DNA from: Metabacillus flavus | GTDB taxonomy: Bacteria; Bacillota; Bacilli; Bacillales; Bacillaceae | Direction: 5' to 3' | Length of the DNA: 64,000 bases | Assembly (NCBI RefSeq): GCF_018283675.1 | Contig: NZ_JAGVRK010000001.1 | Location: 1,550,001-1,614,000, forward strand | Shown: piece after piece, positions 52,163-63,012 of the stretch | How positions within the stretch are numbered: the first letter of the stretch is position 1 | How the letters are laid out: each line of letters begins with the position of its first letter | Translations under genes and position numbers: made by a program | Notes under the pieces: model-generated | What the model was told of the DNA's origin: nothing | The model's input: the letters and a program-made list of their open reading frames with translations, nothing else | Databases searched by the model: none

Positions 52163-52227
52163 AGGGAAAGAAAAGTTAGATTATGGAAATAAATTGGCGA
52201 ATGTCTAAGGAAGGGGGAAGGGAGAAA

Positions 52228-53055
52228 ATGATTTTGGAAAAGAATCTGGATCATCCACAGCTGAAACTGCTATTCAAAGCCCTGGATTCTTCTCAAACAG
52301 GAATCATTATCACGGATCCATCCGTAAAAGAAAATCCCATCTTATATATGTCCAGAGGATTTACAGAAGTAACGGGCTATAGGGAGGAAGAGGTTCTTGG
52401 CAAAAACTGCAGGTTTCTGCAAGGAGAAAAAACAGATCAAAAAGAAGTTGATAAAATCAGAGAAGCCGTTCATGAAAAGAAGTCTGTTTCTGTAACATTG
52501 CTAAACTATCGAAAGGATGGAACCCCTTTTTATAATCAGCTGAATATCGACCCATTCTATATAGAGGAAGAAAATCGCTATTATTTTATAGGAGTCCAAA
52601 AAGATGTAACAATGGAAAAACATTATCAGTCCTTGATGGAACAAGCTATGATGGAGGCGGATAAAAGATCAACCCCTATCATTTCCATTGAAGATCAGGT
52701 TTCTGTTCTTCCGCTGATCGGGTCTTTTCCAAGCGAGAGGCTTACCATTTTAATGAGAAATATTATGGAGCATAAAGATAAAACGAGGGACAAATATTTA
52801 ATCCTTGATATTTCAGGTCTGTCCGTTTTCGACCGTGCGCTTTCGAATTATATGGTGAACTTAAATGGATGGCTAAAGCTTCTTGGTACCCAGCTCATGA
52901 TTACAGGGATATACCCGCGCATGGCCGTTACAGAACTTGAGGATTACGAAGAATTAAACACTATTAAAGTGTTCCCCGCTGTAAAGCATGCATTGGAATA
53001 CGTAAAAAAAGAAAGCAGCCAAAGCCCTGATGTGTTCTTCAAAAACCGTATTTAA
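52228..53055 (+). CDS. Second LOV-STAS blue-light photoreceptor
   Basis: The ATG at 52228 lies behind GGGGGAAGGGAG. Residues ~12-125 are a LOV domain with GKNCRFLQG (Cys61 as adduct cysteine), NYRKDG and the Gln of FIGVQKDVT. A longer linker than in the other copy (MEKHYQSLMEQAMMEADKRSTPI) leads to a STAS domain with LDISGLSVFDRALSNYMV (~residues 190-265). It is a paralogue of the YtvA-type protein at 26222, with a housekeeping-type promoter rather than a sigma-B one. Its partner and output are unknown. Confidence 0.9.
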   Translation: MILEKNLDHPQLKLLFKALDSSQTGIIITDPSVKENPILYMSRGFTEVTGYREEEVLGKNCRFLQGEKTDQKEVDKIREAVHEKKSVSVTLLNYRKDGTPFYNQLNIDPFYIEEENRYYFIGVQKDVTMEKHYQSLMEQAMMEADKRSTPIISIEDQVSVLPLIGSFPSERLTILMRNIMEHKDKTRDKYLILDISGLSVFDRALSNYMVNLNGWLKLLGTQLMITGIYPRMAVTELEDYEELNTIKVFPAVKHALEYVKKESSQSPDVFFKNRI

Positions 53056-55976: not shown

Positions 55977-56244
55977 CCATACATCCTCCATCCTTTTTTA
56001 AGTATAGTTGCAATTATATAAAAATTGAGACAATTAAGAAAGTATTTAATGCTGAAGAATTAAAAAAGGAAGGGAAAGGGGAGGAAGAAGGAATAGGAAA
56101 TAGAAATATACTGGGAAGAAATGACTCAGGGGGGATCAGTTATTAGATTTGTATTTGGATTGCCTTAGTCAAATCAGATTGATCTTGAGCTGCCCGCCGC
56201 TGGAAGACCGACTCTGGGGAATAATGGAACATTGGCTGTATGGG

Positions 56245-56273
56245 TTGGTTCTTTTCAGATTTTGCGGTAGAAT
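56245..56273 (+). promoter_or_regulatory. Sigma-A-like promoter of the RsbR-like gene
   Basis: TTGGTT (56245-56250), 17-bp spacer, TAGAAT (56268-56273), 44 nt before the GTG start. The remaining divergent region 55977-56244 shows no gene. Confidence 0.5.
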
Positions 56274-56316
56274 AGTAGAAGCTTTTTACTTGTATAACCG
56301 GCAAGGAGGAAAACAA

Positions 56317-57114
56317 GTGGCAACTTCAGCGAATATTAACTTAATTAAGTTTAAGGATCTAGTCCTTCAGAAGGCATACAGAAATCAAAGCTTTAGTTCG
56401 TTTAAAGGAAATAAACAGGATTTAACGGACTGGAGGAAAAAATTAATTGAAATTTATGCAAACTCATTAACCCTGTCTTCAGAACAATCAGCTGGCGAAG
56501 TTAAGAAATGGGGAAAGGATTTTGCGAACAAGCTGGTAGAGCTAGGCTTGCCTCTGGATGCAGCAATTGCTGAGATGAGGACCGCCAAGCAGAACATTGG
56601 AGAACTCCTTAAAGAAGAAGCCAGCAAGCAAGAATTGACGATCAATGAATACTATTCGATCTATTCCATCTTTGACAGAGTAGTAGACCAATCTGTTGAG
56701 CTTGTTTCGATTTGTTATATGAAGGCACATGATGAAAAGATTTCTTCTGCCCAGCATGCAGTAGATGAGCTTTCCATTCCTGTAGTGAAAATTGAAGAAG
56801 GAATCGGCATCCTGCCAGTCATTGGAGACATTGATACAAGAAGAGCCCAGCTATTAATGGTAACAGCTCTGGAAAAGAGTGCAGAATTTAAACTGGAGTA
56901 TTTGATTCTTGACCTTTCAGGAGTTCCGGTGATTGATACGATGGTGGCTCAGCAAATATTCCAAGTACTTGAAGCGCTTAGAATTTCAGGCGTAACCAGC
57001 AAAATCAGCGGCATCCGTCCTGAGCTTGCGATTACGATGACTCAGCTCGGTGTAAACTTTGAAGTGCAATCCTTCTCAAGTCTGCATCAAGCAATTGCAA
57101 GTATTAAAGAGTAG
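56317..57114 (+). CDS. RsbR-like stressosome protein
   Basis: GTG 56317 is the start, behind AAGGAGGA. Residues ~1-135 are helical and globin-like, as in RsbR N-domains, without haem ligands that I can assign. Residues ~150-265 form a STAS domain: IPVVKIEEGIGILPVIGDID, LILDLSGVPVIDTMVAQQIF and GIRPELAITMTQLGV. The two RsbT phosphorylation positions carry Ser (DLSG) and Thr (AITM). RsbR paralogues build the stressosome that controls sigma-B, into which YtvA also assembles. It resembles the YqhA/YojH group. Single gene with terminator. Confidence 0.87.
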   Translation: MATSANINLIKFKDLVLQKAYRNQSFSSFKGNKQDLTDWRKKLIEIYANSLTLSSEQSAGEVKKWGKDFANKLVELGLPLDAAIAEMRTAKQNIGELLKEEASKQELTINEYYSIYSIFDRVVDQSVELVSICYMKAHDEKISSAQHAVDELSIPVVKIEEGIGILPVIGDIDTRRAQLLMVTALEKSAEFKLEYLILDLSGVPVIDTMVAQQIFQVLEALRISGVTSKISGIRPELAITMTQLGVNFEVQSFSSLHQAIASIKE

Positions 57115-58128: not shown

Positions 58129-58851
58129 TTAATAAATTATATCATACATATGAATTAAGGAAAGAAAAAGGAGACAATCCGATTCATTGACTTCATCGGC
58201 TGCAGCTTTAATCTTTAATACAAATGTGACTCCCTGAATTTCAATCGGAATCAGAGCTGTCTTTTCTTCGGGCCGATAGACAATTTCATTTCGTTCAAGC
58301 GCGGAACGAATGCCTCCTTTTCTTTCAATCACCCCTAGAAGCTGTTCCTTTTCCTGATCTGTGTCAAACGAATGGAAGGAAGCAGCCATATCGTTTTTTT
58401 CTGCAAATGATTGAATCAGCTCATCCAGCCCTTGCATGTATTCAGTAAGGCCGCCTTGATACAGATTAATGGAAACATGCTGAAGGAGATTCGCGAATGT
58501 TTTAAGGCGATGATTATTCTCCTGGACAAGTCGGGCATTCTCTTCTAAAACCTCCGTATGCCTTTCCAGTTCGTTAACCCCAAGTTTTTTAATATACATA
58601 CCCAGAAACAGAAAAGCATCGACTAGAACAAAAACCCCAAAGACAATCAGGTAGTTTTTCCAATCAGAGAATAGAGAAGCAGGGTATGCTGTCCAGAATA
58701 CAGCAGCTCCCAGCAAAAATAGCAGATACCACGTTTTGCGGATTGATTCAGATGCCTTCTTTACCCGATCCTCCCAAATCCAATGAGAAATACCGTAAAA
58801 TGCCAGCAATAAAAGCACAAACCAAACCAGCCATTGATAAAAAAGAATCAT
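58129..58851 (-). CDS. spoIISA: Membrane toxin SpoIISA
   Basis: A 240-residue protein with three N-terminal membrane helices (residues ~5-20, ~38-58, ~68-88) and RKTWYLLFLLGAAVFWTAYPASLF in between, which follows B. subtilis SpoIISA closely. A coiled segment (NELERHTEVLEENARLVQENN) connects to a cytosolic GAF-like domain with LNRLKTF-like helices, YRPEEKTALIPIEIQGVTF and a final LIHMYDIIY. SpoIISA kills by damaging the membrane during sporulation unless SpoIISB is present. It is followed directly by spoIISB. Confidence 0.9.
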   Translation of the reverse strand: MILFYQWLVWFVLLLLAFYGISHWIWEDRVKKASESIRKTWYLLFLLGAAVFWTAYPASLFSDWKNYLIVFGVFVLVDAFLFLGMYIKKLGVNELERHTEVLEENARLVQENNHRLKTFANLLQHVSINLYQGGLTEYMQGLDELIQSFAEKNDMAASFHSFDTDQEKEQLLGVIERKGGIRSALERNEIVYRPEEKTALIPIEIQGVTFVLKIKAAADEVNESDCLLFLSLIHMYDIIY

Positions 58852-59074
58852 AAACGATTTAGTGAGGAAGCGCTCAGTTTTAAATCCATTAAGTGATTCA
58901 ACCTCCTTTTCCTGTCTGCTTATTCGACAAAAAGGGAGAAATACCCTGCATGTTTAAACGTATTAATTTAACCTAAAACATTATCTTAGGCCAAATGTCC
59001 TTTACAGGCTTGATTTGACCGCGGTGGCTAATTTCATCTTCCATTTTATATAAGGGTGAATAGATGAGATGGAA

Positions 59075-59140
59075 TTCCGGAAAAACGGAAATTTCCGATT
59101 TTCCGGAAGTTTAAACGTGTCTTTTCCGGGAAACCGGAAA
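59075..59140 (+). promoter_or_regulatory. Three inverted repeats upstream of a sigma-54 promoter (activator sites)
   Basis: Sites at 59075-59091 (TTCCGGAAAAACGGAAA), 59092-59108 (TTTCCGATTTTCCGGAA) and 59123-59140 (TTTCCGGGAAACCGGAAA) share TTCCG-n-CGGAA arms. The first two are mirror images, making a 34-bp near-perfect palindrome. They end 95-127 bp before the -24 element, where enhancer-binding proteins of sigma-54 promoters usually bind. Confidence 0.75.
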
Positions 59141-59190
59141 TTTTCTAAGGTCTTGTTCTTTCATGAAAATTTTCAATATGTGTCCTATCA

Positions 59191-59216
59191 ATGTTCTGTG
59201 AACTTTTTCTGAACAT
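59191..59216 (+). promoter_or_regulatory. ATGTTC / GAACAT inverted repeat near the sigma-54 promoter
   Basis: ATGTTC (59191-59196) and GAACAT (59211-59216) with a 14-bp spacer, 18 bp before the -24 box. Possibly a further regulator site. Confidence 0.3.
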
Positions 59217-59234
59217 TCAATCCTTTCTGTATCG

Positions 59235-59252
59235 TTGGCACGCTTCTTGCTT
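59235..59252 (+). promoter_or_regulatory. Sigma-54 (SigL) -24/-12 promoter
   Basis: TTGGCAC (59235-59241), 5-bp spacer, TTGCTT (59247-59252). It matches the TTGGCACNNNNNTTGCWW consensus at every fixed position. Confidence 0.88.
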
Positions 59253-59270
59253 AATAGTTTAGTAAGTTGG

Positions 59271-59285
59271 TTGGAAGCGCTTCCT
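59271..59285 (+). promoter_or_regulatory. cre site (CcpA) downstream of the sigma-54 promoter
   Basis: TTGGAAGCGCTTCCT contains a perfect palindrome GGAAGCGCTTCC and fits the cre pattern at all fixed positions. Lying about 20 bp after the -12 box, bound CcpA would act as a roadblock. Confidence 0.75.
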
Positions 59286-59321
59286 TTTTGACCGGCTTCA
59301 CAGAAGAAAAGGGGGATATAT

Positions 59322-60767
59322 GTGGAAATCATTATTATTTTATTGTCTTTAAGCTTGCTGATGTTTGTAGCGTACAGAGGATTCTCAGTCATTTTGTTTG
59401 CTCCGATTTGTGCACTCTTTGCTGTACTTCTTACGGATCCAAGCTTCGTGCTGCCATTTTTCTCAAATATATTTATGGAAAAAATGGTTGGTTTCATCAA
59501 GCTGTATTTCCCGGTCTTTTTACTTGGGGCCATCTTTGGAAAAGTCGTGGAAATGTCCGGCTTAGCCGAAACGATTGCAAAGACAATCGTGAAGCTGGTG
59601 GGAGCGAAGAGGGCGATTCTTGCTATCGTCCTTATGGGAGCAATCCTTACTTACAGCGGTGTCAGCCTGTTTGTCGTTGTGTTCGCCGTATATCCGTTTG
59701 CTAAAAACCTGTTTATGGAAGCAGACATTCCGAAACGGCTTATTCCCGGAACGATTGCGCTTGGGGCATTTACCTTTACGATGGATGCTCTGCCGGGAAC
59801 TCCTCAGATTCAGAACGTCATTCCTACGACTTTCTTTAAAACTGATATTTATGCTGCACCCGTTTTAGGGATTGTCGGAGCGATTTTTGTATTGACACTC
59901 GGTATGCTTTATTTGGAATCCCGCCGCAAGAAAGCAGAAAAAGCAGGAGAGGGCTATGCAGGTTTTGCATCCGAGCTCGCTGCAGCATCCGAGGGTTCAG
60001 ATCTTGTGCTTGAAAAAGAAGCTGCTTCCGTATCGGCAAATACAGATCCCTCAACAGCAAGGCAAATCCTTGCATTTGTCCCGCTTATTCTTGTTGGGGT
60101 GATGAATAAATTTTTCACAGTATCCTTCCCTCAGTGGTATCCGGATGGTTTTGATTTCACTGCCATAGGGCTTGAGGCATTCGGTAAAATTGAGCTTTCT
60201 TCCGTTGTCGCAATCTGGTCGGTGGAGCTTGCATTGCTCATCGGTATTATTGCAACCTTTGCATTTAACTGGAAAGCTGTTACCTCAAACATTCAGGAAG
60301 GGCTGAATGCTGGGATTGGAGGAGCGCTGCTTGCCGCAATGAATACGGGTGCTGAGTATGGATTTGGAGGAGTAATCTCAGCTTTGCCAGGATTCAAAAC
60401 CGTTAGTTCTGGTATTTCCAGCACATTTACGGATCCGCTTGTTAACGGTGCGGTTACAACCACAACCTTAGCCGGAATTACGGGATCTGCATCCGGCGGT
60501 ATGGGTATTGCGTTGAGTGCAATGTCTGAAACGTACCTGCAGGCAATTGAAAAGTACAATATTCCACCAGAAGTTATGCACAGGGTCATTTCAATGGCTT
60601 CCGGCGGTATGGATACGCTGCCGCACAATGGAGCGGTTATCACCTTGCTTGCCGTAACAGGATTAACACATCGTCAGTCCTATCGCGATATCTTTGCGAT
60701 CACGATTATTAAGACCATTGCCGTATTTGTCATCATTGGTCTTTACAGTTTAACTGGTTTAGTCTAA
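59322..60767 (+). CDS. GntP-family permease, probable hydroxybutyrate/acetoacetate uptake (YxjC-like)
   Basis: It starts at GTG behind AAAAGGGGG. The 481-residue protein has about 12 membrane helices and GntP features: [19 protein letters not shown] early, [52 protein letters not shown]-type loop, and [31 protein letters not shown] near the end. B. subtilis yxjC stands in the same order before scoA, scoB and yxjF. It probably imports a short hydroxy- or keto-acid for the enzymes encoded next. Confidence 0.9.
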
Positions 60768-60795: not shown

Positions 60796-61500
60796 ATGGG
60801 TAAAGGAAAAATTCTTAAATCTTTTGAAGAAGCAATTGAACCGATACAGGATGGCGCAACATTGATTGTTGGAGGATTCGGGCTATGCGGTATTCCTGAA
60901 AAAAGCATTCTTGCCTTGCAGGAAAAAGGAGTTAAAAACCTAACTGTCGTCAGCAACAATTGCGGGGTGGATGACTGGGGACTTGGATTGCTCCTGGCTA
61001 ATAATCAAATAAAAAAGATGATGTCTTCCTATGTAGGAGAAAACAAGATTTTCGAACGCCAGTTTTTAAGCGGAGAGCTGGAGGTCGAACTTATTCCTCA
61101 AGGAACACTGGCGGAAAGAATGCGTGCTGGGGGAGCCGGGATTCCCGGCTTCTACACGGCTACAGGTGTTGGAACAAAAGTAGCGGAAGGGAAAGAGCAT
61201 AAGGAGTTTGACGGGAAAACGTATATTCTGGAACGCGGAATCATCGGAGATTTTGCTCTTGTTAAAGCATGGAAGGCAGATTCTCTCGGAAATCTCGTGT
61301 TTAGAAAAACATCGAGGAACTTTAATCCTGTTGCCGCTATGGCTGGGAAGATTACCATTGCAGAGGTTGAAGAGATTGTAGAAGCTGGCGAGCTTGACCC
61401 GGATGAAATCCATACACCGGGAATTTACGTCCAGCACGTACTCCTTGGGGAAAATTACGAAAAACGCATCGAGCGGCGAACCGTACTACAGGCACAGTAA
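60796..61500 (+). CDS. scoA: 3-oxoacid CoA-transferase subunit A
   Basis: GGAAAGGGGAAA precedes the ATG. The 234-residue protein has the subunit A pattern: [72 protein letters not shown] and [12 protein letters not shown]. With ScoB it transfers CoA from succinyl-CoA to acetoacetate, the entry step of ketone-body use. Encoded 15 bp before scoB. Confidence 0.95.
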
Positions 61501-61515
61501 AGGAGGCAAAATGCA

Positions 61516-62169
61516 ATGATGGAAAATCGCCAAAAAATGGTCAAGAGAGCTGTAAAAGAAATAAAAGACGGCATGAACGTAAACCTGGGGATTGGGATGC
61601 CGACACTTGTAGCCAATGAAATACCTGCTCATTACAATGTTTTGCTTCAGTCAGAAAATGGACTTCTCGGAATTGGGCCATATCCGGTTGAAGGAACAGA
61701 AGATCCTGACTTGATTAATGCTGGCAAAGAAACGGTAACGGCCGTTCCTGGTTCCTCTTATTTTGACAGTGCAGAATCCTTCGCGATGATACGCGGCGGC
61801 CATATTGATCTGGCCATTCTTGGAGGCATGGAGGTTTCCGAAGAAGGGGACCTGGCTAACTGGATGATTCCGGGGAAAATGATTAAAGGAATGGGCGGCG
61901 CCATGGATTTGGTGAATGGTGCTAAAAGAATTATCGTAATTATGGAGCATGTAAATAAACATGGGGAGTCCAAAGTGAAATCAGCATGTACACTGCCTTT
62001 AACAGGAAAGCAAGTGGTACATCGCCTCATTACAGATCTGGCTGTTTTTGATTTTCATTCAGGCAGAATGGAGCTGGTTGAACTGCAGGAAGGTGTTTCG
62101 ATCGAAGAGGTGAAGGAAAAAACAGAAGCCTCTTTTACCATCAGCCAAAATTTATTGACGGCCCATTAA
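61516..62169 (+). CDS. scoB: 3-oxoacid CoA-transferase subunit B
   Basis: AAAGGAGG lies upstream of ATG 61516. The 217-residue protein contains LGIGMPTLVANEIP, the catalytic glutamate in QSENGLLGIGPYP, SYFDSAESFAMIRGGHIDLAILGGMEV and SACTLPLTGKQVVHRLITDLAVF. The Glu forms the enzyme-CoA thioester. It forms the heterodimer with ScoA. Confidence 0.95.
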   Translation: MMENRQKMVKRAVKEIKDGMNVNLGIGMPTLVANEIPAHYNVLLQSENGLLGIGPYPVEGTEDPDLINAGKETVTAVPGSSYFDSAESFAMIRGGHIDLAILGGMEVSEEGDLANWMIPGKMIKGMGGAMDLVNGAKRIIVIMEHVNKHGESKVKSACTLPLTGKQVVHRLITDLAVFDFHSGRMELVELQEGVSIEEVKEKTEASFTISQNLLTAH

Positions 62170-62193
62170 AATCACATGGAAAAGGAGCCTGAC

Positions 62194-62979
62194 ATGGAAC
62201 GCTTACTAGAAAAAAAAGTGGCCCTGATCACAGGTGCAGCGAGCGGGATCGGATTTGAAATTGCGAAAGAATTCGCTTCTCAAGGTGCAGTGGTAATCGT
62301 ATCTGATTTAAAAGCAGAGTCAGCAGAAAAGGCAGCTGGTCAATTAAGAGAGGCAGGCGGAGTAGCAATTTCTGCTGTGTGTGATGTAACGAAAGAAGAG
62401 CATATTGCTGAAGCCATTGAAACGGTCATGGAAAAGTACGGCCGTCTTGATATCCTTATTAATAACGCGGGGCTGCAGCATGTTTCACCAATTGAAGAAT
62501 TTCCGACAGACCGGTTTGAATTTTTGATAAAGGTGATGCTGACAGCTCCTTTTATAGCCACAAAGCATGCATTTCCAATTATGAAAAAACAGAAGTTTGG
62601 CCGGATCATCAATATGGCATCCATAAATGGTTTAATTGGTTTTGCAGGGAAAGCTGCTTACAATAGTGCGAAGCATGGAGTAATTGGTCTTACAAAAGTA
62701 TCTGCTCTTGAAGGGGCGGAGCATGGAATTACGGTAAATGCCGTTTGCCCTGGATATGTGGATACCCCTCTTGTCCGCAATCAGCTCTCTGATCTGGCTA
62801 AAACGAGAAACGTCGAACTGGAAAAGGTACTTGAAGAAGTAATTTATCCGCTTGTTCCGCAAAAAAGGCTCCTTGATGTACAGGAAATTGCAGACTATGC
62901 CGTATTTCTTTCAAGTGATAAGGCACGAGGCGTAACCGGCCAGGCTGTAGTATTGGATGGCGGTTATACGGTACAATGA
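62194..62979 (+). CDS. 3-hydroxybutyrate dehydrogenase (YxjF-like SDR)
   Basis: The ATG at 62194 follows AAAAGGAGCCTGAC; ATG 62176 lacks a site. The 261-residue SDR has TGAASGIGFEIA, NNAGLQHVSPIEEFPTDRF (the hydroxybutyrate dehydrogenase-type substrate loop), MASINGLIG, YNSAKHGVIGLTK and CPGYVDTPLVR. It would oxidise D-3-hydroxybutyrate to acetoacetate, the substrate of ScoAB, completing the pathway of the operon. Confidence 0.92.
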   Translation: MERLLEKKVALITGAASGIGFEIAKEFASQGAVVIVSDLKAESAEKAAGQLREAGGVAISAVCDVTKEEHIAEAIETVMEKYGRLDILINNAGLQHVSPIEEFPTDRFEFLIKVMLTAPFIATKHAFPIMKKQKFGRIINMASINGLIGFAGKAAYNSAKHGVIGLTKVSALEGAEHGITVNAVCPGYVDTPLVRNQLSDLAKTRNVELEKVLEEVIYPLVPQKRLLDVQEIADYAVFLSSDKARGVTGQAVVLDGGYTVQ

Positions 62980-63012
62980 AAAAAGGAACTCCGACGGCGG
63001 AGTTCCTTTTTT
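62979..63012. terminator. Strong bidirectional terminator
   Basis: AAAAAAGGAACTCCG pairs with CGGAGTTCCTTTTTT around ACGG, between the operon and the leftward gene. Confidence 0.9.

Follow-up and report, generated by a model that had tools for sequence, protein, structure and literature searches.

A probable local sigma-54 circuit, with a neighbouring PAS-type activator and a phased three-site module, at a 3-hydroxybutyrate operon

Judged from its sequence, the 3-hydroxybutyrate operon of Metabacillus flavus is very likely driven by a local sigma-54 circuit, in which a neighbouring activator, three TTCCG-N6-CGGAA sites and a -24/-12 box act together and CcpA damps expression. The sites, the box and the activator gene were read directly from the DNA, as were their joint conservation and loss among relatives, the spacing of the sites and the phasing of these sites to the promoter. 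We infer that the PAS-AAA+-Fis protein encoded behind the operon would bind the three sites and loop to the sigma-54 polymerase at the box, thereby opening the promoter. Opening would in turn allow uptake and oxidation of 3-hydroxybutyrate through the permease, the dehydrogenase and, here, also the CoA-transferase. CcpA would damp the operon from a site that lies after the promoter and ahead of the first gene, and in this genome a perfect cre in the activator leader would probably extend this damping to the activator gene. Evolutionary support for the proposed circuit is clear, and the phasing is its one unexpected quantitative feature.

The stretch of DNA analyzed, hereafter the window, comprises 64,000 nucleotides (C1:1550001-1614000) of a 4.03-Mb genome and contains all four operon genes (Table 1). 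The names yxjC and yxjF were taken from an earlier note on this DNA, and family assignments come from Pfam and NCBIfam profile matches. Translation of yxjC begins at a GTG codon, and its product shares 97% identity with the Bacillus sp. SJS protein (L153). The surroundings also include a SpoIISA-type toxin gene (PF14171; 58129-58851, minus strand) divergent from yxjC, genes for a PAS-STAS protein and a second STAS protein less than 4 kb apart (52183-53055 and 56149-57114), and a terminator-like 34-bp near-perfect palindrome followed by a T run just 3' of yxjF (62979-63012).

Table 1. Features of the operon, its upstream region and the activator gene (window positions unless another frame is named).
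Feature	Sequence	Position	Strand	Remark
Site 1 (distal)	TTCCGGAAAAACGGAA	59075-59090	.	letters read directly
Site 2	TTCCGATTTTCCGGAA	59093-59108	.	letters read directly
Site 3 (proximal)	TTCCGGGAAACCGGAA	59124-59139	.	letters read directly
Sigma-54 -24/-12 box, TTGGCAC-N5-TTGCTT	TTGGCACGCTTCTTGCTT	59235-59252	+	exact match, 1 of 5 in genome
cre-like site	TTGGAAGCGCTTCCTT	59271-59286	+	imperfect, 2 mismatches; perfect palindromic core
yxjC		59322-60767	+	GntP/CitMHS-like permease; weak Pfam matches
scoA		60796-61500	+	3-oxoacid CoA-transferase subunit A family; TIGR02429 above cut-off
scoB		61516-62169	+	3-oxoacid CoA-transferase subunit B family; TIGR02428 above cut-off
yxjF		62176-62979	+	3-hydroxybutyrate dehydrogenase family; NF009093 and TIGR01963 above cut-off
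Activator gene		C1:1615148-1616557 (L029:9148-10557)	+	beyond window end, behind operon

The earlier note had described three TTCCG/CGGAA inverted repeats before the operon, two of them forming a 34-bp near-palindrome. All three were read, at 59075, 59093 and 59124, and sites 1 and 2 pair at 16 of 17 positions, which ties them with the palindrome at 62979 as the best 34-mer of the window. The 16-bp TTCCG-N6-CGGAA pattern occurs at 16 places in the 4.03-Mb genome, three of which lie here inside 65 bp, and a backwards control of the pattern occurs at 4. Since the other 13 places are all more than 83 kb from any other exact box, no second target was found by the combination of site and box. The consensus -24/-12 box claimed ahead of the operon was also recovered as an exact match at 59235; its end is separated by 70 bp from the yxjC start codon at 59322, and transcription would be expected to start near 59262. 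Exact TGGCACN5TTGCW was found at five places in the genome, with controls giving 0 and 1 by strand. Only exact matches carry weight, because those with 2 mismatches occurred at chance level in the window (39 versus 34.4 expected) and were dropped. Two of the remaining exact boxes, at 1598614 (window 48614) and 1997173, fall within open reading frames; another, at 725906, sits in a gap between the longer frames of its locus, and the last, at 2412518, lies between one activator gene and one metabolic gene, which we take to be BkdR-like and ptb-like, respectively. A simple scan of 58800-59400 found no sigma-A-like promoter on the plus strand and one on the minus strand.

The activator had been presumed to be encoded elsewhere or lost. 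Instead, a PAS-AAA+-Fis gene was found behind the operon, its ATG 1,148 bp and the first possible start of its frame 1,118 bp past the window end. The ATG, preceded by a plausible ribosome site, opens a frame for a 469-aa enhancer-binding protein, and the leader contains a sigma-A-like promoter (9 of 12; three such matches were found versus 0.8 expected, two of them on the other strand). One opposite-strand gene separates the operon from the activator; it encodes a 634-aa SbsC_C-domain protein (L029:7035-8939, minus strand, running from window 63035 past the end), and a gene of this kind was found at the equivalent place in L064, L065, L066 and L074. A whole-genome Pfam search with Sigma54_activat returned seven matches, three of them strong, the strongest being the operon's neighbour; of the other two strong matches, one lies beside a ptb-like operon with its own exact box and one has no Fis-type HTH match. 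The neighbour carries sequence features of a sigma-54 enhancer-binding protein, namely, an AAA+ domain (PF00158, 237 bits), a Fis-type HTH (PF02954, residues 438-476 of the 479-aa reading) and a GAFTGA-type loop, here the Ser variant GSFTGA rather than the strict motif. Among 21 aligned activators, the G, F, T, G and A of this loop are invariant and the second place is S or A. The genome also contains one sigma-54 gene to match the -24/-12 box at the target. Fold searches with the AAA+ model matched FleQ, NtrC1 and others. The best NCBIfam match, PrdR (NF041552, over residues 22-476), scored 452.8 bits, below its cut-off of 795, and AtoC (NF008469) scored 326 bits, below 714; both identities were rejected.

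Activator, box and sites travel together among relatives. A first pass yielded 20 of 150 related genomes with an activator match of at least 59% identity (the gene being in two pieces in G065), and their loci were fetched. A yxjC-type gene lay near the activator in all 20 loci; in L082 it was split into two pieces with 45-51% identity, and in the other loci its identity was at least 77%. Counting the window's own locus, 21 of 21 had at least two sites and the box upstream of the operon, each within 1 mismatch. A yxjC alignment scan then provided a named set, the best 80 of 264 loci, in which a locus counted as having the activator when an ortholog of at least 59% identity was in the examined flank and as lacking it when none was there. 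The activator was present in the flank of 64 of these best 80 loci. All 64 had the box within 1 mismatch (34 exactly), and at least two sites were found in 62 and at least three in 55, so that a sigma-54 promoter preceded by enhancer-type sites, as the earlier note had proposed, is upheld; the absence of the repeats from related genomes, which the note had named as evidence to the contrary, was seen neither here nor in the 21 first-pass loci. Among the 16 of the best 80 without the activator, the box was found in one and at least two sites in one, both cases being Bacillus siamensis L159; L211, L213 and L222, also among these 16, have a 44-46% activator nearby. Box and at least two sites thus occurred jointly in 62/64 loci with and 1/16 loci without the activator (Fisher test on this best-80 set, 3e-13, ignoring kinship). 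As background, the remaining 1.35 Mb of DNA in the loci contained 76 sites, and 1 of 3315 tiles of 400 bp had two. In genus g6 outside the named set, no site within 1 mismatch was found in the 800 bp upstream in L132, L133, L135, L136, L145 and L146. In two genomes, a second yxjC copy (L138 and L139) follows, at a distance of about 4 kb, an activator of 43-44% identity that has an exact -24/-12 box near it but no TTCCG-N6-CGGAA sites, perhaps a sister circuit with another operator.

One might suppose that the palindromes bind some other regulator and that the adjacent activator works at another place or by way of different DNA. L169 and L174 fit such a view, as both have activator and box, no site within 1 mismatch and only degenerate half-sites. 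Against it, among the best 80 of 264, sites accompany the activator in 62 of 64 loci, and 15 of the 16 loci lacking the activator have no such sites. A second tier of 16 loci with activators of 44-52% identity, drawn from many more such matches, points the same way: the activator is usually ahead of the operon, the sites lie between the two, and at least two sites (within 2 mismatches) were present in 11/11 loci whose yxjF is at least 67% identical, versus 1/5 of the others. We therefore consider a separate regulator very improbable. In these second-tier activators, the recognition helix has ISR or VSR in four site-less loci (L086, L087, L088 and L091) and mostly GK or SK where sites are present, a suggestive candidate for a specificity position drawn from too few loci to use. 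A different objection accepts the proposed circuit and changes its signal to acetoacetate or another short acid, which we regard as quite possible without being the better guess. It draws on the presence of scoAB in the window's operon and on the PAS domain, in which the invariant N-x-R-M and A-N-R residues could hold some carboxylate; the nearest solved fold to the PAS model, the cytoplasmic PAS of the kinase CitA, is uninformative on ligand, and the structure models and fold searches recovered the AAA+ and PAS folds only, indicating no ligand. On the other side, yxjF lies downstream of yxjC in 60 of the 64 activator loci among the best 80 of 264 (four lack a neighbouring yxjF), as opposed to scoA within 2.5 kb in 28. 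Because yxjF is the steadier partner and scoAB is often absent, 3-hydroxybutyrate appears to be the likelier signal. In 54 of the 59 loci where it could be measured, no more than 500 bp separate yxjF from the start of an activator gene on the same strand, and the activator may for this reason be co-transcribed and self-reinforcing there, unlike in the window genome, where the reverse gene intervenes and the activator has its own leader.

The module itself has a near-fixed spacing of about 18 and then 32 bp: among the 55 three-site loci of the best 80 of 264, sites 1 and 2 are 17-19 bp apart in 53 and sites 2 and 3 are 31-33 bp apart in 52. The order is reversed (32 then 18) in L199 and, by eye, in L176, a turn that would be tolerated as it may be in an enhancer. 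The nearest site lies 47 to 363 bp from the box across 69 loci. For distances below 200 bp (66 loci, leaving out L185, L186 and L195, which exceed it), the best period was 11.1 bp (R 0.57), with 0 of 2000 jittered sets as strong; at 10.5 bp, R was just 0.36. An in-cell period slightly above 10.5 bp is known from lac looping. This periodicity could be an artefact of shared ancestry or of a few insertions rather than a trace of DNA looping, considering that lineages collapsed on a quick tree remain partly related and that the control distance from site to cre was intermediate rather than flat (R 0.37, 101 of 3000 as strong), as was that from box (-24) to cre (R 0.36, 186 of 3000). However, the period persisted when each distance was counted once (R 0.52 at 11.3, none of 2000 jittered sets as strong), after collapsing clades of like distance to 40-43 lineages (R 0.60-0.67; of 5000 jittered sets, none was as strong in three of the four settings and 1 was in the other) and once the two loci with a turned module had been taken out (R 0.62 over 37 lineages, 0 of 3000). 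Moreover, neither control distance to the start codon showed a period: 1730 of 3000 jittered sets were as strong when it was measured from the box (R 0.22), and 1556 of 3000 when it was measured from the site (R 0.25). An artefact thus seems unlikely, and the phasing is consistent with looping between activator and promoter.

The cre downstream of the promoter, previously called perfect, is not so despite its perfect palindromic core. Measured against the two consensus forms of cre, it has more than 1 mismatch to WTGNAARCGNWWWCA by scan (2 when counted by eye) and 3 to TGWAANCGNTNWCA, also counted by eye. The underlying claim of a putative CcpA-type site between promoter and gene fared better, since a cre within 2 mismatches was found in 59 of the 64 loci with and 13 of the 16 loci without the activator among the best 80 of 264 yxjC loci; the operon cre therefore persists in most loci that lack the activator. 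The activator leader of the window genome contains a perfect cre as well (L029:9119-9133). Leaders of relatives had a cre with 0 or 1 mismatch in 7/70 cases (L163 left out), compared with 0/70 in shuffled and 1/70 in coding controls, and with this count the leader cre was rejected as a general feature of activator genes.

The association was also examined along a yxjC tree (87 rows, quick method), on which activator presence changes 5 times and the sites change 6 times. Over 5 independent pairs, the sites changed along with the activator in 4.5 on average and the opposite way in 0 (sign test, 0.0625, the least value that five pairs can give). Sigma-54 was retained in 18/18 genomes tested, 12 without and 6 with an activator locus. 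Compared side by side, the Bacillus loci can be read as successive stages of decay of the presumed circuit. It is intact in B. atrophaeus (L158); in B. mojavensis (L163), the activator gene is in two frames and the sites are present; and in B. siamensis (L159), the activator gene is gone, leaving two sites and a weakened, one-mismatch box, apparently as a relic. No site or box within 1 mismatch was found in L161, B. inaquosorum (L197) and B. tequilensis (L208). The cre is kept in most Bacillus loci at these stages. A fragment of the activator gene was found in L136.

No description of the activator or of the TTCCG-N6-CGGAA site was recognised in the literature searched, which consisted mainly of the starts of abstracts with few subscription papers. 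In the accessible parts of PMC4591507 and PMC4348106, yxjC appears in gene tables only; the activator targets named in the accessible part of PMC4428206 do not include the yxjC-scoAB-yxjF operon, and the terms sought do not occur in the text of PMC4524646. According to the portion available, PMC12316311 counts subunits of 3-ketoacid CoA-transferase among the sigma-54 targets predicted across bacteria, so that sigma-54 control of genes of this kind in general is already in print.

We consider it reasonably probable that the loci described here belong to a sigma-54 activator family absent from the literature searched, with its own operator and a module of about 18 + 32 bp that dozens of lineages have maintained on a single face of the helix with respect to the promoter, with a period of about 11.1 bp. 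The module is turned in one locus and, judged by eye, in another, and the circuit would have been dismantled in several species of the B. subtilis group, leaving relics in some. Since several relatives in that group have lost the switch, the group would not have revealed it. If this is true, natural variation would read out DNA looping inside Gram-positive cells, the operon would gain an activator, an operator sequence and a probable signal, and some 70 natural enhancers would form a comparative set for reading spacing, phasing, orientation and decay.

Several known systems resemble parts of the proposed circuit. AtoC, the acetoacetate regulator of Escherichia coli, is a sigma-54 activator of an acetoacetate CoA-transferase operon; it works with a partner kinase and carries a receiver domain, whereas the present activator has a PAS domain. 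The NtrC enhancer at glnA has sites about three helical turns apart and loops to sigma-54; by comparison, the present module adds an abutting site at 18 bp and has another site sequence. GabR of Bacillus thuringiensis, as described in the part of PMC4279683 available, is likewise a PAS-AAA+-HTH activator whose target is a sigma-54 catabolic promoter next to it, with the substrate or one of its breakdown products as inducer; it protects 96 bp of DNA with a 21-bp inverted repeat 105 bp before the start codon. The present circuit differs from that description (PMC4279683) in having three TTCCG-N6-CGGAA sites of 16 bp and in its target genes. The cellobiose genes of B. thuringiensis, again from the accessible part of the source, offer the likeness of a sigma-54 operon with three possible activator sites and a glucose repression that involves CcpA (PMC10864463). 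Their activator, CelR, is however of the PRD/PTS type, in contrast to the PAS-type activator encoded behind the 3-hydroxybutyrate operon.
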